The translations under genes and the position numbers were made by a program. Under the pieces are notes generated by a model. It was given only the letters and a program-made list of their open reading frames with translations, did no database searches and was not told where the DNA came from. This document shows positions 2,182-51,559 of a stretch of 53,006 nucleotides of DNA, in pieces. The stretch comes from an uncultured Bacteroidia bacterium (lineage in GTDB: Bacteria; Bacteroidota; Bacteroidia; JANWVE01), in assembly GCA_938028625.1 (NCBI GenBank), contig CALIZB010000047.1, positions 1-53,006 of the forward strand, written 5' to 3'. How positions within the stretch are numbered: the first letter of the stretch is position 1; each line of letters starts with the position of its first letter.

Positions 2182-4914
2182 TTACACAGTTTGCTTTAAC
2201 TTTTTGAGCAAGTTCTCTATTGCTAAATCATTAAAATCTTCTATTTGTTGTAATAGGTATTTTTTCAGTTGGGCAACCGTAGCATTCTCATCATTGAGAA
2301 ATTGTATTACCTTACTTAACTCTTCCATATTGCCTATAAGCAGACATTTTTCGGCTTCGGCAACCCATGTGTCAGGGATATGTTGCTGAACAAAGGTAAA
2401 ATCTAGTTCTTCTATATTGAAAGCAGTTTCTTCGGTTGTATCAGCCATAACATCATTTTCATACACATATTCAATGTTCAGATTTTTTGCAATAGCGTCA
2501 AAAAGTTGTGAAGCTGTGTAGGGTTTGGCAATATAATCATCTAAACCTGACTGTATAATTTCATGTTTCTGATGCTCAAAAGCATCTGCGGTTACAGCAA
2601 TAATTTTTACGTTGCTCTGAGGATATTGTGTACGAATTTCTTTGGTGGCTTCAAAACCATTGATAACAGGCATACGAATATCCATCATGATTAAGTCAGG
2701 TTTGAAAGTATAATATTTTTCAACAGCTTCTTTACCGTTATAGGCTTTTTCTGTGATAAATCCTGCGGATTGCAAAAATTCATTAGCAACCTCTACATTG
2801 ATTTGGCTGTCATCTACAATAAGAATACGGGGTTTAATCTCATTTTTAATTGCTTTTACTTTATTTGTATTTTTCTGTGCGGTCCGTACAGGAGTTTCAA
2901 TAATTTCAAGGGGAAGAGAAAAACTGAAAGTACTGCCTTTATCTAATTCGCTTTCTATATGCATAACACCACCCATAAGTTCAATATAGCTTTTAGTAAT
3001 GGCTAATCCCAATCCTGTACCGCCTTCTGTATTCTGTGCATGGTAAATTTGGGTAAAAGGCTTGGTCATTTCGCTTATTTTGTCTTTGGGTATGCCTCTG
3101 CCTGTGTCCCTTACAGCAAAACGGATATTGCCGTTAAATTCTTTGGTTACGATAAACGTAATACTACCCTTTTGAGTAAATTTTACCGCGTTGCCCATAA
3201 AATTGATGATGCATTGACGGAGTTTTCCTGTATCTGTGCGGACATGCTTGGGTAACTGTGCGTCTTTTTCTACAACAAGTTGTAGTCCTTTATTTTCACA
3301 TCTTAATTTGAATAAATCATAAATTTCTTGTACGAGTGCATGCAAGTCTGTTTCATCATAATGCAGTTCCATTTTACCTGCTTCAATTTTGCTCAAATCC
3401 AAAATATCATTGATAAGACCAAGTAAATGCTCTCCGCTTTTATTGATGATTTGTAATTTTTCCTTGTGTTTTTCGGATACAGAATTATCATTCATTAAAA
3501 TTTGAGCATAGCCCAAGATACCGTTGAGAGGTGTTCTCAATTCATGGGACATATTAGATAAAAAATCAGATTTTACTTTATTAGCTTGTTCAGCCTGTTT
3601 TTGAGCAATTTCTGCGGCTTCTTTGGCTACTACAAGTTCCTGAGTGCGTGCTTCTACCAAATCTTCTAATTTTTCGTTGAGTTCTTCCATTTCACGATTT
3701 TTTTCCTCTAAGTCCTGTTGATACAAGCGCATCTGCTCTTGTGTAGCTTGAAGTTCTTCGAGATTTTGGCGAAGTTCTTCTTCGGAAGATTGTAAAGCAT
3801 TAGTTTTTGCAATAAGCTCTTGTTCATTTTGTAAGCGAATAATTACGTTTGCAAATATCTCACCTATTGTTTTAAGGAGGTTAATTTCGTTATCTTTCCA
3901 AGTTCTATGTTCGCATTTTGTAACAGACACCATACCTATACTTTTATTTTTGAAAATCATAGGGATAGCTAACATCGCTTTGACGCCCATTTGTGCAAAG
4001 AACGTTTTTTCATTACTTGCTTGGTCATCTAGTTCTGTTAAATCTGAAAAGACGACATTTTGAGACTCTATTATAATTTTTTGTGTAAAATAAGGGAAGA
4101 AACCAGCCTGCATTTCGCGTTCTGTGTCATTTTTGAATTCTCTTATACCTTGAATAACAGACCAATCAGCAATATGACGAATAACAGTATTATTATTTTT
4201 GAGTATCATCACGTTAGCAAAGTCTGCTTGCATAAAATTTCCTATTTTTTGGAGGGTTTGTTCTAGGGCAGGGATAAGTTCCTTATTATCTATATTTACA
4301 AATAACGTTGAAGTTTCTGTAATAATCTCGTCTATACGAACTCTTTCTTGTAGGTTATGGTAAGTACTCTGTAATTGTTCTTGTGTAGTTTGGAGTTCTT
4401 CGAGATTTTGGCGAAGCTCTTCTTCGCGAGCTTGGAGTTCTCTATTTTGTTGTTCTATAAGCAAATCAGCGAGTTTTTCTTGGGTAAAGTCTCGTGCAGT
4501 ACCCAGCAGTTTAAAGGGTTTTCCTGTTTCATCAAAAATGACTTTCCCTTTTGCCATTATCCACATAATTTCTTTTTTAGCGTTGTACATACGATGTTCT
4601 ACGTCAAATATGCCTGTCTGCGTAACTGCTGTGTGAATAGCTTCATTAAGTTTTATTCTATCCTCTTCGGGGAGCATTTCCTCATTAAATTGTTTAAGAG
4701 TAAGGGGTGTGTTTACGGGTATGCCTGTATTATGATAGAGCTGGTTGCTCCATATAAGTGTATCTGTTTCAAAATAGTATTCCCATGTACCCAAACGAGC
4801 AATATTTTGTGCTTCCTCTAAACGAGCTTCGTTTTCTTCTACTCTACGGATATAGTTTTTGAGAGTGTTTATATCCAAACGTTGAATATACCCTGTGGAG
4901 AGCGTTATTACCAA
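2182..4914 (-). CDS. Hybrid sensor histidine kinase (PAS/PAC, GAF, HisKA, HATPase_c, REC); 3' part of a probably frameshifted gene
   Basis: H-box SNMSHELRTPLNGILGYAQIL, N/G boxes DTGRGIPKDK and GGTGLGLAITK, receiver ILIVDDSQINVEVANEFL...DLIMMDIRMPVINGFEATKEIR, GAF domain and coiled-coil linkers. The track starts it at a TTG inside an overlap with the upstream membrane ORF. Confidence 0.85.
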   Translation of the reverse strand: MVITLSTGYIQRLDINTLKNYIRRVEENEARLEEAQNIARLGTWEYYFETDTLIWSNQLYHNTGIPVNTPLTLKQFNEEMLPEEDRIKLNEAIHTAVTQTGIFDVEHRMYNAKKEIMWIMAKGKVIFDETGKPFKLLGTARDFTQEKLADLLIEQQNRELQAREEELRQNLEELQTTQEQLQSTYHNLQERVRIDEIITETSTLFVNIDNKELIPALEQTLQKIGNFMQADFANVMILKNNNTVIRHIADWSVIQGIREFKNDTEREMQAGFFPYFTQKIIIESQNVVFSDLTELDDQASNEKTFFAQMGVKAMLAIPMIFKNKSIGMVSVTKCEHRTWKDNEINLLKTIGEIFANVIIRLQNEQELIAKTNALQSSEEELRQNLEELQATQEQMRLYQQDLEEKNREMEELNEKLEDLVEARTQELVVAKEAAEIAQKQAEQANKVKSDFLSNMSHELRTPLNGILGYAQILMNDNSVSEKHKEKLQIINKSGEHLLGLINDILDLSKIEAGKMELHYDETDLHALVQEIYDLFKLRCENKGLQLVVEKDAQLPKHVRTDTGKLRQCIINFMGNAVKFTQKGSITFIVTKEFNGNIRFAVRDTGRGIPKDKISEMTKPFTQIYHAQNTEGGTGLGLAITKSYIELMGGVMHIESELDKGSTFSFSLPLEIIETPVRTAQKNTNKVKAIKNEIKPRILIVDDSQINVEVANEFLQSAGFITEKAYNGKEAVEKYYTFKPDLIMMDIRMPVINGFEATKEIRTQYPQSNVKIIAVTADAFEHQKHEIIQSGLDDYIAKPYTASQLFDAIAKNLNIEYVYENDVMADTTEETAFNIEELDFTFVQQHIPDTWVAEAEKCLLIGNMEELSKVIQFLNDENATVAQLKKYLLQQIEDFNDLAIENLLKKLKQTV
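3736..3786 (-). repeat. Direct repeat copy A within the kinase gene (coiled-coil linker)
   Basis: ctcttgtgtagcttgaagttcttcgagattttggcgaagttcttcttcg, near-identical to copy B; encodes EEELRQNLEELQATQEQ. Confidence 0.8.
4379..4427 (-). repeat. Direct repeat copy B within the kinase gene (coiled-coil linker)
   Basis: ttcttgtgtagtttggagttcttcgagattttggcgaagctcttcttcg; encodes EEELRQNLEELQTTQEQ. Confidence 0.8.
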
Positions 4915-5465
4915 TAAAACAATGTAAACCCTGATATACCCACTAAATAGTATTCATTGGGTTGTAGACTGGGTGCTGAGGGAAGATAAAATATACGAGA
5001 GAGAGGGATATAAGATACAAAACAAATCCATGCAAAAAGAATCCCGATTAACCTTTGCTTTTTCTGATAAGGTGCATAAAACAGCATTGGCATAATCGCA
5101 GAAAGTAGCGCTGTAGAAATAGTGAGAAAAAAATCAATGGTGGGTTGTTTACCATTAGAGGTCATAAGAGAGATAATGAGCGTGCCAATGTTAAACTCAA
5201 TAATGCCTAGTATTTTAGCTATATTAGGAGAGAGATATTTACTTACCCAAGGGGTAAGAAAAGCAGGCAGACAGATAATCCATAAAACAACTATAATAAC
5301 AAAAGGTGCATTAAAAGAGAGTAAACTTATAGTAAAAGGAATACCTATAAGCGGTCCTACAATAAGCCCTGTTTTATTAGTAAGAATAACCCTGTTTTTT
5401 TCTAATTCATCCATTTCGGGTTTTATACCGTACTCAATAATTTCTTTCCATGAAGCCATGTTCAA
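4908..5465 (-). CDS. Multi-TM N-terminal sensor region, probably the 5' part of the downstream histidine kinase
   Basis: 185 aa with several hydrophobic helices, same strand, ends in the middle of a TM segment and overlaps the kinase ORF in another frame. Confidence 0.65.
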   Translation of the reverse strand: MNMASWKEIIEYGIKPEMDELEKNRVILTNKTGLIVGPLIGIPFTISLLSFNAPFVIIVVLWIICLPAFLTPWVSKYLSPNIAKILGIIEFNIGTLIISLMTSNGKQPTIDFFLTISTALLSAIMPMLFYAPYQKKQRLIGILFAWICFVSYIPLSRIFYLPSAPSLQPNEYYLVGISGFTLFYW

Positions 5466-5970: not shown

Positions 5971-6678
5971 ATGAAAAAGTTCATATTAGTTGTTACATTA
6001 ATGTTGTTTGTAAAAAGTCTGCTTATGGCACAAACAGCGAAAGAAGTTACTATAACTCAATGGTCTGTGAAAGAAGAAAATGGATACATAAACATAGTAG
6101 GAGAAGTAAAGAATACCTATCCAAATGCTTTAGGTTTTGTAAAAATTGAAATTGAGTACTATGACAAACAAGGCAAACCTATCAGTGTGAATAGATTTAC
6201 AGGTAAAGACGCAGGTACCATGGAAAAAGATGAAACTACGGCAGATTTAGAAGTTATTCTACCTGGTGAGACTTCACCTTTTTCAAGAACAAGAGATATT
6301 AGCAAAATTAAAGGAGAGTTTGGTTCTTGCAAACTTAAAGCTGATGGTATGCTTTTTAAGGAAAATCTCCCCTTTTCTGCAACTTTATCTAATGTAAGCG
6401 TAACCCCTGATGGTCAAAATTTTACAGTAAAAGGCACGTATAAAGCTATGGGCAGCCAAGCATGCAAAAATCCTGCAATTATTATGGTAGGATATGATGA
6501 AAACGGAAAGATAATTAAATCTGAAAAGTTTAATTTTACCGTAGGTAACGATAAATACAAGTTTGTAAATTCTCTTGAACCTAACCAGACCTACGAATTT
6601 TCTGCTAAATTTCTCACTGATAAAAAAGATAAAGTAAAACAGGTAAAAGTACTACCTTTTTATAGCGGATACTTTTAG
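5971..6678 (+). CDS. Secreted FxLYD-like domain protein
   Basis: Signal peptide MKKFILVVTLMLFVKSLLMAQ, then VGEVKNTYPNALGFVKIEIEYYDKQGKPI...LPGETSPFS, typical of FxLYD-type beta domains. Confidence 0.6.
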   Translation: MKKFILVVTLMLFVKSLLMAQTAKEVTITQWSVKEENGYINIVGEVKNTYPNALGFVKIEIEYYDKQGKPISVNRFTGKDAGTMEKDETTADLEVILPGETSPFSRTRDISKIKGEFGSCKLKADGMLFKENLPFSATLSNVSVTPDGQNFTVKGTYKAMGSQACKNPAIIMVGYDENGKIIKSEKFNFTVGNDKYKFVNSLEPNQTYEFSAKFLTDKKDKVKQVKVLPFYSGYF

Positions 6679-6742
6679 ATAAGATTGAGACCCTATGATA
6701 CAATAATTTTAGTTCCATGTTCTTAAAATAAACAAATAGAGC

Positions 6743-6782
6743 ATGCTAACTATTTACATAATGGATAGTTAGCATATTTTTT
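6743..6782 (+). terminator. Rho-independent-like terminator
   Basis: Inverted repeat atgctaactat ... atagttagcat followed by a T-rich tract, downstream of the 5971-6678 CDS. Confidence 0.75.
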
Positions 6783-6952
6783 ATTCCTAAATAGTGGTTT
6801 TACTCAATTTAAGTATAAAATTAAGTGGCTACGAGTGAATATTTAAAGCTAAAAATAAGAGAAGCTACAAGCAGACTAATAGATAATTTTTTATTGAATG
6901 AAACCGCAAGAAACAAACCTATGCTCTTAAAGTTTTTTAGTAGTTTTGCTTA

Positions 6953-8170
6953 ATGTTTTCACGTTATATAGCTCTTCGTACTGTATTTCACAAACGGGGT
7001 AAAAGTACTTTTATTATATGGATTGGTGTTGTGGGAATTGCAGTTTCTGTATGCGTGATACAAATTGCTATGGCTATTCATGGCGGATTCAAAGAGAGCA
7101 TTACAAATACGATTTTTGGCTATGAAGCACAACTTCAAGTAGGTAAATACAACGCAGAAGAGGGTATAAGTAACGAACCTCTCCATTTTACAGACAGTTT
7201 GGTACAGTTTATCCGAAAAAAACACTCTAATATTCACAAAATAAGCCATTATATTGTAATGCCTTCATTAGCACAAAGCAAATCCGATTTGGAAGGTATT
7301 ATGCTCAAAGGAGTAAGTAAAGAAAATACATTAGATTTTTTTAAGCACAATCTTGTAGCAGGAACACTTCCACATAAAGACAGTGCTTTACAAGTTATAG
7401 TAGGAAAAGTTTTAGCAAATAAACTGAAACTTAAAGTAGGCGATAAACTGAAACTGTTTTTTATGCAGAATCCTCCAAAAGCACGGGTAGTAAAAATTAC
7501 AGGCATTTTTCAGACCAATATGCACAATATTGATGAAAGCACAGTGGTAGGAAATATCGGTCTGCTACATAAAATTCTTAACTGGGAAGACAGCCAGACT
7601 ATGGGTATGGAAATATGGTTAAAAAACACCGCTCACATAGAACAGGACAAAGAACAGCTTAAAAATATTTTACATAGTGCAGGTTTATTAGAACAAGAAG
7701 TCTATACTGTATATCAATTATACCCTAATTTATTCAACTGGATTGACTTACAAGGAGGACATGTACGCATTATTATTATGCTTATGCTTATTGTAGCTAC
7801 TATAAATATGACCTGCACACTTTTAGTACTTATTCTAGAACAAACTAAGTCTGTGGGCATACTCAAAGCGGTAGGGGCTTCGGAAGGACAAATCAGAGGA
7901 ATTTTTGTATATCAAGCAGGTGTATTGATTGCTTTGGGAAGCATGGTAGGCAACCTTTTAGGTTCGGGGATTATTCTTGTACAGCAAAAATATCATTTGT
8001 TTAAACTTAATCCTGAAAGTTATTTTCTGAGCTATGTTCCCATGAAGTTCAGTCTGCAAAACCTGCTTTTGATTGATTTAGGTGTAATTTCTGTATGCAC
8101 CTTGTTTATGTTTTTCCCTGCTTTGTACAGCAAAAAAATATCTCCGATTAAGGCGCTTCGTACTGAATAA
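6953..8170 (+). CDS. ABC transporter permease, LolC/LolE/FtsX-like
   Basis: N-terminal FSRYIALRTVFHKRGKSTFIIWIGVVGIAVSV, large periplasmic MacB-like domain, C-terminal FtsX helices (ILKAVGASEGQIRGIFVYQAGVL). Confidence 0.85.
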   Translation: MFSRYIALRTVFHKRGKSTFIIWIGVVGIAVSVCVIQIAMAIHGGFKESITNTIFGYEAQLQVGKYNAEEGISNEPLHFTDSLVQFIRKKHSNIHKISHYIVMPSLAQSKSDLEGIMLKGVSKENTLDFFKHNLVAGTLPHKDSALQVIVGKVLANKLKLKVGDKLKLFFMQNPPKARVVKITGIFQTNMHNIDESTVVGNIGLLHKILNWEDSQTMGMEIWLKNTAHIEQDKEQLKNILHSAGLLEQEVYTVYQLYPNLFNWIDLQGGHVRIIIMLMLIVATINMTCTLLVLILEQTKSVGILKAVGASEGQIRGIFVYQAGVLIALGSMVGNLLGSGIILVQQKYHLFKLNPESYFLSYVPMKFSLQNLLLIDLGVISVCTLFMFFPALYSKKISPIKALRTE

Positions 8171-8196
8171 AAATAACATAAAATCACTCATATTTC

Positions 8197-9090
8197 TCAA
8201 TCTCGTAATGTTTTGCCCGTCAAATGAATAAACAAATCTTCCAGTGTAGGTTTTTGAATAGATATATCATTAAGGTTGATATGTGTTTCTGAAATAAGGT
8301 TTTGTAAAGTTGTGTTTATGTCGTGCGTTTTAAGCATATATTTTCCATCTTTTTGTGTAAAAGAGAAATTTTTTTCTAAAACATTGCTGTCCAAGGCACT
8401 TTTTTCTATTATCAAAGCTGTAGGTAATTGTGCTTGTTGAATAAGATACTGCGGCGAACCTGTACTTACAATTTTGCCGCTGTCCATAATAGCTAATCTA
8501 TCACACAAGCGTTCTGCTTCATCCATGTAATGCGTAGTAAGAACAACGGTTTTACCTTGATTTTTGAGTTTTTGAACAATGTCCCATATATTTCTGCGTG
8601 CTTGTGGGTCTAAACCTGTGGTAGGTTCATCTAAAAATACAATTTCAGGGTCATTTACTAATGCTAATGCTAATACTAAACGCTGTTTTTGACCACCCGA
8701 AAGATGTTTGGTATAAGTTCGGGCTTTCTCTTCCAAATTTACCCAGGTAAGCAAAGTATCTACATCAACAGGATTAGGATAGTAGTGCGCAAAAAGTTGT
8801 AGACATTCTCTTACTGTAATTTTATCATACAAAGATGTACTTTGAAACTGTACACCTATTTTCTGTTTAATTTCTTTTGCATGCGTTTTGATATTCATTC
8901 CTGAAATAAACACTTCACCCGAATCTGCTTTTTGAAGCATTTCTATGATTTCCAGAGTAGTAGTTTTGCCTGCGCCATTGGGACCTAATAGACCAAAAAC
9001 CTCTCCTTGTTGTACTTCAAAACTTACTTCATTTACTGCGAGTATTTGTTTAAAGCGTTTTATAATCTGAATTACTTCTATAACTGCCAT
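8197..9090 (-). CDS. ABC transporter ATP-binding protein
   Basis: Walker A GPNGAGKTT, signature LSGGQKQRL, Walker B EIVFLDEPTTGLDP, H-loop TTHYMDEAE. Confidence 0.92.
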   Translation of the reverse strand: MAVIEVIQIIKRFKQILAVNEVSFEVQQGEVFGLLGPNGAGKTTTLEIIEMLQKADSGEVFISGMNIKTHAKEIKQKIGVQFQSTSLYDKITVRECLQLFAHYYPNPVDVDTLLTWVNLEEKARTYTKHLSGGQKQRLVLALALVNDPEIVFLDEPTTGLDPQARRNIWDIVQKLKNQGKTVVLTTHYMDEAERLCDRLAIMDSGKIVSTGSPQYLIQQAQLPTALIIEKSALDSNVLEKNFSFTQKDGKYMLKTHDINTTLQNLISETHINLNDISIQKPTLEDLFIHLTGKTLRD

Positions 9091-9163
9091 GCCACAAAAT
9101 AAACAAAAATTATAGTCATAAAAAGAAGTTAATGATGTCGTTGTATAAAAACAAAAAAATATG

Positions 9164-9193
9164 TTGAAGTTTAGACTAATGTAAATATATTTG
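9164..9193 (+). promoter_or_regulatory. Candidate Bacteroidota promoter of atpA: TTG-N19-TATATTTG
   Basis: TTG at 9164-9166, TATATTTG at 9186-9193, 18 nt before the ATG at 9212. Confidence 0.55.
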
Positions 9194-9211
9194 CAAAAAT
9201 TTAAGTATATT

Positions 9212-10780
9212 ATGGCAGAAGTCAGACCAGATGAAGTATCTGCAATTCTACGCAGTCAACTTGCAGGTGTAAAAACAGACGCAGAATTAGAAGAAGTCGG
9301 CGTTGTATTACAGGTAGGCGACGGAATTGCACGCATATTCGGTTTAACCCAAGTACAAGCAGGAGAACTGATAGAATTCTCCAATGGCGTAAAAGGTATG
9401 GCACTTAACCTTGAAGAAGACAACGTAGGTGCGGTATTATTCGGTTCTTCTGAAGGTATCAAAGAAGGTGATACAGTAAAAAGGACTAAAAAAATTGCGT
9501 CTATTCCCGTAGGAGAAGGACTTTTAGGGCGTGTTATCAATCCACTTGGCGAGCCTATTGACGGCAAAGGTCCAATTACGGGTAATCTTATAGAACTTCC
9601 TTTGGAAAGAAAAGCACCTGGAGTAATCTACCGACAACCCGTAAAAGAACCACTACAAACAGGACTTAAAGCAATTGACTCTATGATACCTATTGGTAAA
9701 GGTCAGAGAGAGTTAATTATCGGAGATAGGCAAACAGGTAAAACTGCTGTGGCTATTGACACCGTTATCAACCAAAATAAACTCAATGAAGGGGTTATTA
9801 GTATTTATGTTGCCACAGGACAAAAAGGTAGTACCGTAGCTCAGATTGTACGTATTCTTGAAAAGTATGATGCTATGAAAAATACTATTATTGTAGTAGC
9901 TACCGCATCAGACCCTGCACCGCTTCAGTTTATTGCTCCTTTTGCAGGTGCTACTATTGGAGAGTACTTCCGTGATACAGGTAGACACGCACTCGCTATT
10001 TATGATGACCTTTCTAAACAAGCTGTAGCTTATCGTGAAATTTCACTTCTTCTCAAACGCCCTCCTGGACGTGAAGCCTATCCTGGTGATGTATTCTATT
10101 TGCACAGCCGTTTATTAGAACGTGCCGCAAGAATTAACGACAATATTGAGGTAGCCAGCAAAATGAATGACCTGCCCGAAGCATTAAGACCTTTGGTTAA
10201 AGGTGGTGGTTCTTTAACTGCATTACCTATAATAGAAACACAAGGCGGGGACGTTTCCGCTTATATCCCTACTAACGTAATTTCTATTACAGACGGACAG
10301 ATATTCCTTGAAAGTGGCTTATTTAACTCAGGTATTCGTCCTGCTATTAACGTAGGTATCTCTGTATCCCGTGTAGGAGGAAACGCTCAAATTAAATCCA
10401 TGAAAAAAGTAGCTGGTACACTTAAATTAGACCTTGCACAATATCGTGAGTTAGAAGCCTTTGCAAAATTTGGTTCTGACTTAGATGCTACTACTAAAAT
10501 GCGTTTAGAAAGAGGAAAACGTTCCGTAGAACTACTCAAACAACCTCAATACAGCCCACTACCCGTAGAGGAGCAAGTTGCGGTTATCTATGTAGCCACC
10601 AAAGGTTTGTTAGACAGTGTAGCCGTAGATAAAATCAAAGAGTTTGAAGCACAGTTTATCTTCCGCCTAAAAAATCAGCATGCTAACGTGTTAGAAAACC
10701 TTAAAAAAGGCAAACTTGATGATGCAGAAACCTCTGTTCTTGAATCTGTTGCCAAAGACGTAGCTAACAGTATGAAATAA
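9212..10780 (+). CDS. atpA: F0F1 ATP synthase subunit alpha
   Basis: [19 protein letters not shown]..., [18 protein letters not shown], full-length alpha subunit; ATG at 9212 preferred over the upstream TTG at 9191. Confidence 0.97.
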
Positions 10781-12070: not shown

Positions 12071-13567
12071 TTACTCTTTGATGAGTATAGTATTAAATGC
12101 ACTGTATCCTCTGTATTCAGGATAATACATTAATGAAGCAATAGCAGGCGTTACATGATATCTACCAGGTATCTGTGCTTTAAGTAAGTAAGAATATTCA
12201 TAAGTTCCTGGATTAAGTTTAGTAATGGTAATAGCTAATTTGTTATCGCGGTATTCACGATGCGTGTACCATCTATTCCAGTTACGATAATTATAAGCAT
12301 AAGTATCCCAATAATTAGTAATACCATCATATTCTTTTTCAGAGGGAATAATAAATCCCTTGGTATCACGGATAAATTCACAACCTGCAGGAATAGGGTC
12401 TTCTATGAGAACAAAATCTTGTGCCGCGATATTAGATACTTTACATTTAACCAATATTTCATCTCCTGAATGTATATTTTTGAAATCTACTTTTTCTTTA
12501 TGGTAAGTTAATTTTCCTAACACATCTACCTTTTTGACCAATTTATAGTATTCTCGTTCTACGATGAATGTTTTTTCGTTATCAGTTTTTTGGTTGACAG
12601 GTTTTTGTTGTTCATTGGAAGAGTTTTCGTTATAGAAATAAGTAAGTTTTCCGCTGACCATAGCCATACCTGTACCTTCTAAACGCAGATTTATTGTATT
12701 ATTTCCCAACTGCAAATCTTTTACCTTAACAAGTGGCTGTTTTTGGTTACGATTATTTTTATCTATTTTTTGAGTATAGAGCGTTTTACCATTTTGTGTA
12801 AGAGTAAGTGTGTATTCTGCATTAACTTCCTGTTTAATAAACTCATTGACGGCATAAATGGACATTGCGGTCTGACGGGTATTGTGCCATGCTTCACCTT
12901 CCCGTTTAGACATAAGCCATCGGGTAGCCAAAGGCAGTACTTCATGATTGGGACGTACCATGTATATTGCTTTAATGGCATTGGCAGTGGTTTCTACCTG
13001 GTCATCTTGCCATGAGTAATAGAACTTTTTACCTCCCCAGTAATGTCCCATACCTGTTTTCTGTACTTTTTGCATGAGCATATCTAGTAATTTATCCTGC
13101 ATGGCTTTGTCTTTGGCTAAACTGGCTGCCTGCAACCATAAACTTAATGTATAAGCATTTTCTTTGTCTAATGGCATAGTTTTATATTTATCCCATACTT
13201 CATTGATGCCACAGTTAAGAGCTACCATCATTTGGTACGCATGAGTGGCAGGGTCATCAGATTTTTTATTAAATATCAATTCTCTCAATGCATTTCTACC
13301 ACCATTATACATGTCATCAGGTACGGGGTGTCCTGCTTTTTTAGCAAGATACAGTCCATTACATACATAAGCGGTCATAAATGGGTGTGTAGCGTCGTTT
13401 GTCCACCAGCCCCAACCGCCATCTATATGTTGCAGTTCTTTTAAGCGTTTGATACCAGCCTGAACCATTTTAGCAAGTTCAGCTTTATTTATAGATGCTG
13501 TATATTCAGAGTTACCAAGATTTTCCAAAGTATTGGATACAATCACATTAGGTAAAAATCTGCTCAT
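12071..13567 (-). CDS. C-terminal fragment of alpha-2-macroglobulin-like protein (thioester domain onward)
   Basis: RLKELQHIDGGWGWWTNDATHPFMTAYVCNGL and the CxEQ-proximal EQTMSRFLPN in frame immediately upstream of the ATG. Confidence 0.75.
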   Translation of the reverse strand: MSRFLPNVIVSNTLENLGNSEYTASINKAELAKMVQAGIKRLKELQHIDGGWGWWTNDATHPFMTAYVCNGLYLAKKAGHPVPDDMYNGGRNALRELIFNKKSDDPATHAYQMMVALNCGINEVWDKYKTMPLDKENAYTLSLWLQAASLAKDKAMQDKLLDMLMQKVQKTGMGHYWGGKKFYYSWQDDQVETTANAIKAIYMVRPNHEVLPLATRWLMSKREGEAWHNTRQTAMSIYAVNEFIKQEVNAEYTLTLTQNGKTLYTQKIDKNNRNQKQPLVKVKDLQLGNNTINLRLEGTGMAMVSGKLTYFYNENSSNEQQKPVNQKTDNEKTFIVEREYYKLVKKVDVLGKLTYHKEKVDFKNIHSGDEILVKCKVSNIAAQDFVLIEDPIPAGCEFIRDTKGFIIPSEKEYDGITNYWDTYAYNYRNWNRWYTHREYRDNKLAITITKLNPGTYEYSYLLKAQIPGRYHVTPAIASLMYYPEYRGYSAFNTILIKE

Positions 13568-13670
13568 AGTCTGTTCTAGAAGCCGTAAGGGTAGCCAATA
13601 AGGTTTTCTATGCCGTTAAGCAAAGCAGAGGTAAGAGAAGGTTCTACGGTAAGGAATAATGAGGCACTAG

Positions 13671-13922
13671 CTATATCTGTATTCTGAGGAACTGTTTGAG
13701 ATGCTGCATGAAGAAGTTTTTTGCATTTTTTATTTTGTAGGCTACTACACGAAGATTTTTTGTACTTCGGCTGTACGAATAATCATAGTATTGTATAGTA
13801 GCGGATTGTTCCGTAGTAAAGGTTTGATTAGCATAGATGTAAAAGCTACGTTGCTGAGCTTGTAATACGTATATGGGCATCAATAAAGCTAATACGCATA
13901 AAAAGATGAGGTTTGTTTTCAT
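13671..13922 (-). CDS. N-terminal fragment of alpha-2-macroglobulin-like protein
   Basis: Signal peptide MKTNLIFLCVLALLMPIYVLQAQ then RSFYIYANQTFTTEQSATIQYYDYSYSRSTKNLRVVAYKIKNAKNFF, then premature stop. Confidence 0.55.
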   Translation of the reverse strand: MKTNLIFLCVLALLMPIYVLQAQQRSFYIYANQTFTTEQSATIQYYDYSYSRSTKNLRVVAYKIKNAKNFFMQHLKQFLRIQI

Positions 13923-47311: not shown

Positions 47312-50300
47312 TTATATTCCGACCATTACAAAAGCGCCCCAGTATTTAGGTTGAGGATATTTATTTTTGAGTTCCAACTGTGCCTTGCGGAAAGCGGCAT
47401 GTTTTTCTATTCCGTCATTTATCCAGTATTGATAGAATAAGGTCATAAGTTCTTTGGTAGCGATATCATTTACTTTCCATAAACTCATCAGAATAGCTTT
47501 TGCTCCTGCTGCCATAAAAGAACGCTGTAATCCAAAAACGCCTTCTCCATTGCGTACTTCACCTAAGCCTGTTTCGCATGCACTCATAATCACAAGTTCT
47601 GTGTTATTCAGTTCTAAATTCATGGCTTCATAAGCCGTAAGGATACCGTTGTTGCTTTCTTGGTCTAATTCGTTGTTAATAGCAATATTTGCTCCTGCTA
47701 GCATCAGTCCTGAACGCAAAAGCGGGTGTTTAGAAGCGGCTTCGGTATTGATACCGAGTTCACGAGTTTTGTTGCTTTGAGCAAGGAAAAATCCATGTGT
47801 AGCAATATGCAGAATAGCAGGATTTTTTGCGGTTTTCTTTATCATCTCTTCGGAAGCCTCTGCGCCGAGATAGCTTTTTGCTATAATGTTTTTAGTGGCA
47901 CATACTTTAGAAACATCACTAATTTCTTCTTTTGTACCGGGCAGTTCAGAAAGTTTATAGTCCTTAAATTCGTTTGATGTTATAGTATTTTGTGCTGTGA
48001 TATTAGCATTATAGTCAGGATAACCAAAAAATGCCGCACTGTTTGAAGTTCTACCTTTATCAATTTTGCGATATTGTATAAGGTCTTTGGTATTGCTTAC
48101 AAAGCGGATATTATGGTTATCTATAACGTATTTACCATCAGGCTGAAGAAGCGTATTGAGATTGAGTTGGTGATACACACCATCAGAGGACACGTAGAGG
48201 TTCATTTTAGTGCCTATTTTTTTATCCACTTGTTCCCAGAACACACCATAGGAGTAAGGGTCATCAAGAGCATTTTTTGCAGACCTGCGGTAAGCGACTA
48301 TGTACATTTTTTCCATAGCTCTGCCATCTGTATTAAGAACATACTCTGGATTTTTCTTAGTTTTTTTATCTACAATCAAATAAGCATAGCAAACAGAATC
48401 TTTGTATTTACCATGCGAGTTTCTGAAACGAATAATTTCCACTGCGGCATCATTTTTACCTAACCTTTTTTGAACATCTTTCCATGTATAGTTTTTACGT
48501 TCGTAATTACGGGCAAACTCTTCGGAGAGTAAAGAAAGTTCTTTTTCCAAATCATCAAGTTCGTTTTCAAATTGCTGTTGATTGATACCTTCTGCCTGAA
48601 TTTTTTCTTTGCTCATATTGAGAATACGAGCAAGTTCCTCGCGTTTTTCTAACCACTGCTGATATTTTATAATCAAAGTACTATCCCCGCTGTTCATAAT
48701 TCTGCGGCGGATTTTAGTAGAGGTATTGAAAATAAGGGCTTTGGTCTGCAACTGATGATTGTATACATAACTTAACAGGTTAGGATTTCTATCTACTTGG
48801 TCGAAAGCAAAAGAAATAAATTCATCAAAATTGGTTTTGAGTTTAGTAATGTACTTAATACGTTCTATCTCGGTAAGCGAGGGGAAGTATATTTTTATCT
48901 GTTTTTGATACTGATTGATAGCGGATATAAAAGATTTTTCAGCATTTTTGAGATCATTGGTACGCCACGCGTAGCCTGCATAGCCTATTAGTGCATCTGT
49001 ATAATCAGGATGTCCTTCGGGCAGGTAGTCTTCACGAATATCCAGTACCGTTTTATACAAATCCCCTGATTCTGTGTATCTACCTTTTGAGGTATAAAAT
49101 TGGGCAAGATTAAATAATGCAGTAGCATATCTTGGATTTTTTTCTCCTACTTGGGACTTTTCTATTTCAATAGCTTTTTTATAGGTTTCTTCGGCTTGTG
49201 CATCTCGCTGTGTAATTGCATAAAGATTAGCTAAATCTGTAAGGGCTAAACTATATTCAAGTTTATTTTCTTTGACCACATTCTGCATAAGGTTAATACC
49301 TTCCGAATAGTATTTTTCTGAAATTTGAAAAGCTCTTTTTGCTTCGGTTTGACTATTTTTAGCATCAGAAGCAAGCAAATCAACACCTTGTAAATATGCT
49401 ATTTTACCTAATCTTAGAAGTGTTTTAGCATATTCCAAAGTATTTTTTCCACCCAATTGTTCATTAAGCAACAACATAGTTTTAGCTTGTTGTTCTGATT
49501 TATCATAATCTCCGATAGCTACATAAATGTCGGTTTCTATACCTAATGACTCTATATAGATTTTTTGTTTTTCTCCTACTTTTTCTTTAATAATTTTAGT
49601 AGCTTCGGTACTTATGGGTGCGGCTTCTGTATATCTGCCCATAAAATAGAGTAATTTTGCTTTGGTATTAAGTGCATTTGCGTATTCAAGACTTGTTTTG
49701 CCATTTCTTTGTGCCACAAGTTCAATGGCTTTGTTGCACAGCGGTTCTGCTTCGTCATATTTACCAAGAGAAACATACAAATCTGCCAAAGCTACCACAG
49801 AATTTGCGCCTTGTATTTGAGCATCAGATTTTTTAGAGGTTTTGAAAGATTTCATTAAAATAGCTTCTGCTTCTTTATACTTTCCTGTTTTTCGGTACAT
49901 ATCCGCAATATTTTCTAGAAATTTATTGTATGCTATAAGATTGTTGCTTACTTTATAGCTTTCAGGGTCGCCGAGAGAAGTAATAAGTTGGTTGGCTTCC
50001 TCATATTTACCCATATCCGCTTTTAAGACTGCCAAATCAGATACCGCAAGTGCATACAATAAAGATTTTTTACGTTCTATACGTAAATTTTTTATTTCCT
50101 CAAAAACGGGGAGTGCTTCAGGATATTTACCTGTACCTTGTAACAATCTTGCCAAAGCCGTAGCTGTACCGATATAACTCTCTGAAGAATGTTTTATTTC
50201 AGTGTTTTTGTACTGATACGCATTTTGTAAAAGGGTTAGAGCTTCTTTATATAAGGATAACTTTTCCGCATAAAGTCTACCGAGTTCATCTTCATACAAA

Positions 50301-51559
50301 GCATAAGCAAGATAATTTTTACCCATGTAACTGTCCATATTAGCAAGAATTTCTTTAAGAGTCTGTTCTGCACTACTATAATCTTTTATAGTGAGATAGT
50401 ATTGACAAATCTGGTTGAGAATCTGTGTGTACTCCCATGAAGTTGAGGCATACTTTTGTTTAGCGTATTTAACAGCTCTTTCAAAATGGATATTAGCACT
50501 TTTAGTATGTTTGATTTGGTATTCTGCCATTGCTATCCATAACATAGCCTGCGACCATTGCAAGGGGTCTTGATTTTTACGAGGTTTGTATTTAGCAAAC
50601 TTTTTAAAGTCATTTAGAATGGTATTATAGCGTTTTCTATCATAGTTTACTTTTGCCATCTGAATTTGAGTAGCTATGCGCTGCGTACTTTTTTTACCAA
50701 ATCTATAAGTGGCTATTTTCATAGCTTCTTCAGCACGTTTATAGGCTTTGGTATGTTCACCTTTTGCAAGATAACTATCTGACTCATACAACATAGAAGT
50801 ATAATAGGCATCAGATTTTTTGGATAAAGCACGGGTGATGTTTTTACGAGCAAGGTAAAATATGCTATCTGCACTATTAAAATCTTGTTTAAGATGTAAA
50901 ACTCTACCATATAAACTCAATCCTATACCATAACGAGCTTGCGCACCTGTTTTATTTTTTTCTAACTTGCGTTTTTTAGTAAATTTTTCATTGATTTCAC
51001 ATAATTTTTTAGCAGTTTGAGTAGCTTTTTGCAATTCTTGACGTTCTATTTGTAAGCGTAGTTGTGTTTCTAAGGCATAACTATAAGCACGGTATGTATT
51101 CGCATTTGTAATATCTATCTCAGGTTGGTTTTGCAAATTAGTTTCTAATATAGATAAACCTTCATTGAGATAATTGTCTGTTTTTTTATACTGATGTTTA
51201 GCTAGTTCAATAGCACCTAATAACGTATAAACGTATCCGTACATGTAATGTCGTACCATTCCTTTATTCTGATAGATATTTTGAGCTTGCTTTGCATATT
51301 CAGCGGCTTTATCATATTCTTTGGCTAATAAAGCATAATAAGCTGTTTTTGCCGCAACATAAGCAGTTGTAGTATCTTGAGGGTTCTTTTCAACGTATCG
51401 TTTGTGTGTTTTGACAGCACTCGCATAGGCTTTTTTAAATTGTTGTTTTTGTACATACAACTCGGGTTTAGAGAGATTAACTTTTTCTCGTTGCGCGTGG
51501 GCGTGTAAACTAATTACAACAAAGAGCAAGAGCAGTGAAAAATAATACGATATTTTCAT
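47312..51559 (-). CDS. Exported TPR-repeat CHAT-domain protein (caspase-like fold)
   Basis: Signal peptide [23 protein letters not shown], ~850 aa of TPR-like repeats, C-terminal CHAT with [11 protein letters not shown] (His) and [45 protein letters not shown] (Cys). Confidence 0.9.
   Translation of the reverse strand: [1415 protein letters not shown]

Follow-up and report, generated by a model that had tools for sequence, protein, structure and literature searches.

The window, a stretch of 53,006 nucleotides from an uncultured Bacteroidia bacterium (contig CALIZB010000047.1), carries on its minus strand what is, with a probability of roughly 0.85, a pseudogene that arose recently from a bacterial alpha-2-macroglobulin (A2M) gene of the CxEQ (type I-like) kind, encoding about 1,700 residues. 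Two or more lesions inactivate the gene, which lacks about two thirds of its original length. Three collinear pieces are left in three different frames; each aligns where it should on full-length homologs, and the core of the gene is absent. The pieces and lesions are listed below.

13710..13922, minus strand: 5' remnant in frame A, with an ATG, a signal-peptide-like start and the first macroglobulin-like stretch, to ...KIKNAKNFF, from N-terminal matches.
13693..13709, minus strand: junction of a putative out-of-frame deletion of about 1,060-1,080 codons (MG2, MG5, bait region, A2M domain), from the jump in the homolog alignment.
13582..13692, minus strand: middle remnant in frame C, just before the thioester Cys, VPQNTDIASASLFLTVEPSLTSALLNGIENLIGYPYG, with 57-62% identity to loci L015 and L041 over 37 aa.
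GGC 13584-13582, TTC 13581-13579, TAG 13578-13576, minus strand: codons of the incoming frame, read from the sequence.
13576..13581, minus strand: frameshift lesion, the thioester Cys codon being one base short (incoming TTC-TAG; Cys in 43 of 44 homologous loci).
12071..13579, minus strand: 3' remnant in frame B, LEQTMSRFLPN..., covering the remainder of the thioester domain plus the C-terminal bMG10, open for 502 codons, from Pfam, homologs and the YfhM/ECAM structures.
13567-12071, minus strand: longest ATG open reading frame (ORF) of the 3' remnant, 498 aa.

The 3' ORF contains both the thioester domain (TED; PF07678, E 9e-11) and the C-terminal MG10 domain (bMG10; PF17973, E 2e-26) that mark type I bacterial A2Ms, both above the Pfam cut-offs, and it matches the solved YfhM/ECAM and SaA2M structures with E values from 3e-11 to 4e-8. 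By homology search, 44 loci in public genomes match the 498-aa ORF, the closest of them sharing 50% identity along its entire length (E 8e-161). The motif (Y/F)PYGC(V/I/T)EQ stands at the site in 43 of them, and the only locus without it, L049, starts at its contig edge. The sequence-only reading had recognised the canonical CxEQ thioester of the A2M family at this position, and these loci together with the two Pfam domains bear it out.

The homologs are 1,550-1,741 aa long from stop to stop, with the Cys at about 1,080-1,240. Across the whole 3' part the closest relatives, L015 and L016, show 50% and 45% identity, and the tree groups the window copy with these two (100/99 support), apart from the A2M genes on contigs C89 and C115 of the same genome. 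The contig of L016 is labelled uncultured Thalassobius (Alphaproteobacteria) and encodes, beside the A2M gene, a PorZ-type protein that ends in a type IX secretion tail, for which reason it looks like a misassigned Bacteroidota contig. In a comparison with 42 homologs, the 3' part keeps all 24 invariant columns, and of the 66 columns that at least 90% of the homologs conserve it keeps 61; L015 and L016 score 62 of 69 each. Since the 3' part is as well conserved as these two relatives, the damage should be recent, or else lie in the assembly.

The site of the frameshift is the minus-strand segment 13600-13560, TATTGGCTACCCTTACGGCTTCTAGAACAGACTATGAGCAG. The incoming frame reads NGIENLIGYPYG, followed by F and a stop, and the outgoing frame runs CTA (13579-13577)-GAA-CAG, giving LEQTMSRFLPN..., and stays open to 12071. 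Re-reading of the minus strand thus reproduced both frames reported before, GYPYG-F-stop and LEQTMSRFLPN, the second continuing as the 498-aa ORF. An in-frame CxEQ is not encoded: the E-Q is kept, the Cys codon lacks one base, and the incoming frame runs into a stop. Because the five bases separating GGC from GAACAG contain no G, the most parsimonious explanation is that one base was lost within the Cys codon, as had been proposed, and placing the loss outside this codon requires one additional substitution. The description of a gene broken exactly at the thioester holds in that a base is missing there, but this is neither the sole nor the main damage, as about 1,060-1,080 upstream codons are also gone out of frame; the third frame had been overlooked, as had the loss at 13709-13693, which takes out about 3.2 kb and shifts the frame.

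Searched against a small set of 15 homologs, the middle remnant aligns with L015 (E 5e-12) and L041 (E 1e-11) as far as YPYG itself. Because both this upstream piece and the downstream ORF match homologs, the frame break at GYPYG is not a chance one. Frame A runs beyond 13710 to a stop at 13671, so that the third frame spans 13922-13671. The 5' remnant resembles the N-termini of L018, L021, L017, L022 and L024 (E values between 1e-5 and 3e-4, database of 15 sequences), its hydrophobic leader was recognised by eye, and it has no Pfam match; this modest similarity and the position of the piece suggest that it belongs to the A2M gene.

The 5' similarity stops near the FF at 13710, and the similarity on the GYPYG side starts at VPQ (13692). 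Across this junction, five homologs jump from residue about 90-135 to about 1164-1193, corresponding to 1,060-1,080 residues or about 3.2 kb. In full-length homologs about 1,080-1,240 residues (counted stop to stop) precede the thioester Cys; in the window, the 5' remnant (13922-13710) lies only about 130 bases upstream of the thioester site, and the gene start only about 340 bases upstream. The missing part comprises, in the relatives, MG2, bMG5, the bait-region domain (BRD) and the A2M domain. Neither Pfam nor the homolog alignment found bait-region or central MG domains within 13922-13579, while L015 and L016 carry them. The frame changes at the 13709-13693 junction, and even with both shifts added up the 5' and 3' ends of the gene are out of frame with each other. 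From these alignments, about 3.2 kb appears to have been lost at the junction, including everything that would sense a protease. Because the bait region and about 1,060-1,080 codons are missing out of frame, the protein would be non-functional whatever the state of the cysteine.

Emphasis on the cysteine was therefore misplaced, and this is an ordinary dead gene. Over the surviving 1.85 kb, the chance of one indel falling on the Cys codon is about 0.2%, a figure to be read with the caveat that the coincidence was selected after the fact. A mutation targeted at the cysteine was considered and is not needed, the coincidence having been picked post hoc and the bait region being gone anyway. Nothing points to a targeted or selected strike on the catalytic residue, and the indel probably landed on its codon by coincidence in an already dead gene.

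The gene might instead be intact in the organism, with sequencing or assembly artefacts accounting for the lost base, for the 3.2-kb gap or for both. We regard this as unlikely. The genome is a draft assembly of 170 contigs, and another of its A2M genes is split by a contig break, as C42 and C115 both end inside an A2M frame (open for 1,131 and 883 codons, respectively):

6627-10019 of G000:C42: A2M half-frame L077, running off the contig end.
4730-7378 of G000:C115: A2M half-frame L078, running off the contig end.

The two half-frames probably belong to a single A2M gene, about 2,000 residues long, that an assembly gap interrupts. The clean 3' half, as conserved as intact homologs, would equally be expected if the gene were intact and only locally misassembled. 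However, the one-base slip lies outside any homopolymer (GGCTTCTAG), there are two separate lesions in one gene, and most surrounding ORFs, judged by their Pfam matches, look full length. A simple misjoin would moreover tend to leave the missing core on another contig, and a whole-genome search with the L015 core found no close match elsewhere. The best matches were on C42 (32% over 155 aa), C115 (28%) and C89 (22%), whereas about 50% was expected, and they belong to two other A2M genes. Both of these keep CxEQ: the C89 gene is open for 1,846 codons with GYPHGCLEQ intact, and the C115 gene has EFPHECTEQ, its frame exiting at the contig end. As the slip is outside a homopolymer, most ORFs with Pfam matches in the window look full length and no other contig holds the core, real decay is favoured, and both lesions would be true mutations rather than assembly errors.

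Programmed frameshifting at GGC-TTC-TAG, or translation of the 498-aa ORF alone as a stand-alone TED-MG10 protein, could be imagined from the absence of a stop in the 502 codons of the 3' ORF and from its normal codon-position GC (0.45/0.33/0.29, near the values of neighbouring genes), but both are very improbable. A slip at this site gives Phe-Leu-Glu-Gln with no thioester Cys, a slippery heptamer is absent there, and the second frame change at 13709-13693 would also be required; programmed frameshifting was rejected on the missing Cys and this second frame change. Other loci read the motif in a single frame. A short product would lack the bait region, and translation from the ATG at 13567 leaves it without a signal peptide. 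With the bait and central domains gone, the Cys shifted, two slips needed and no signal peptide on the product from 13567, the locus should make no working product, from either remnant. Similarly far-fetched is the idea that the 3' ORF continues to be expressed and, as a TED-MG10 fragment that has neither thioester nor bait region, is reused for a role other than protease trapping.

The pseudogene is flanked by malate dehydrogenase (mdh) and a DegT-type aminotransferase, and the adjoining genes are housekeeping by Pfam. A linked pbpC (PBP1c) is frequent, though not universal, at type I bacterial A2M genes; here pbpC is not adjacent, and the sole BiPBP_C match of the genome is on contig C52. 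In two sister genomes of the genus (91% and 97% complete), the locus was not found at the protein or DNA level, an absence that is likely but, at this completeness, not certain. Malate dehydrogenase and the DegT-type aminotransferase lie in other neighbourhoods there, and the contig of one sister ends just after malate dehydrogenase. The two sister genomes thus neither date the lesions nor tell loss from gain.

Other features were seen in passing. A sister contig, L062, has at 7267-7478 a terminal G/C homopolymer run that looks like an assembly or sequencing artefact. In the window, a hybrid histidine kinase ORF (PAS, GAF, HisKA, receiver) at 2182-5465 on the minus strand begins at a TTG within the end of a 185-aa, membrane-looking ORF in another frame, and is possibly a second split gene; no clear ortholog was found in the sister genomes. 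At 47312-51559, also on the minus strand, a 1,415-aa protein has a leader, many TPR repeats and a C-terminal CHAT (caspase-like) domain.

In annotation, the proper label for the locus is A2M pseudogene; it should be entered neither as a 498-aa hypothetical protein nor as a catalytic cysteine knocked out by a single base, and beyond annotation it matters little. It would place in this lineage a CxEQ A2M subfamily that is patchy in its occurrence and common in Ignavibacteria; the subfamily would now be disappearing here, with two other A2M genes remaining.

Intact type I proteins are cut in their bait region by a protease, whereupon the Cys-Gln thioester becomes exposed and bonds the attacker, a protease-trapping mechanism established for ECAM of E. 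coli and SaA2M of Salmonella (PMC4498604, PMC5764988). By homology, the ancestor of the window copy would have been an exported protease trap of this kind, with bait cleavage exposing the Cys-Gln thioester to bond the attacking protease. The copy left in the window cannot do this: an out-of-frame deletion of about 3.2 kb has probably taken both the bait region and the macroglobulin core, and the frame is shifted at the thioester cysteine, where one base is missing.

With type I A2Ms (E. coli ECAM/YfhM, PDB 4rtd, 4ziu and 5a42; Salmonella SaA2M, 4u48), the window copy has in common the YPYG-C-x-EQ context, which in ECAM comprises Tyr1183, Tyr1185, Cys1187 and Gln1190 (PMC4498604), and the order of TED followed by the C-terminal MG domain (E 3e-11). 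Unlike them, it has a frameshifted Cys codon, no bait region or central MG domains and no adjacent pbpC. A literature search found no yfaS pseudogenes. The type II A2M MagD of Pseudomonas aeruginosa is naturally without a thioester (PMC5764988), and like it the window copy encodes no in-frame thioester Cys. However, type II proteins have their full length and their bait region and lie in a mag operon, whereas the window copy has lost the bait region and adjoins housekeeping genes, and type II membership was rejected on these grounds; the close relatives, unlike MagD, all have CxEQ. These relatives are the unclassified CVEQ A2M homologs of 1,550-1,740 residues from Ignavibacteria and Bacteroidia (L015, L016, L017-L058). 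Where they are readable whole, they have a single open frame and an intact Cys, in contrast to the three frames and shifted Cys codon of the window copy.
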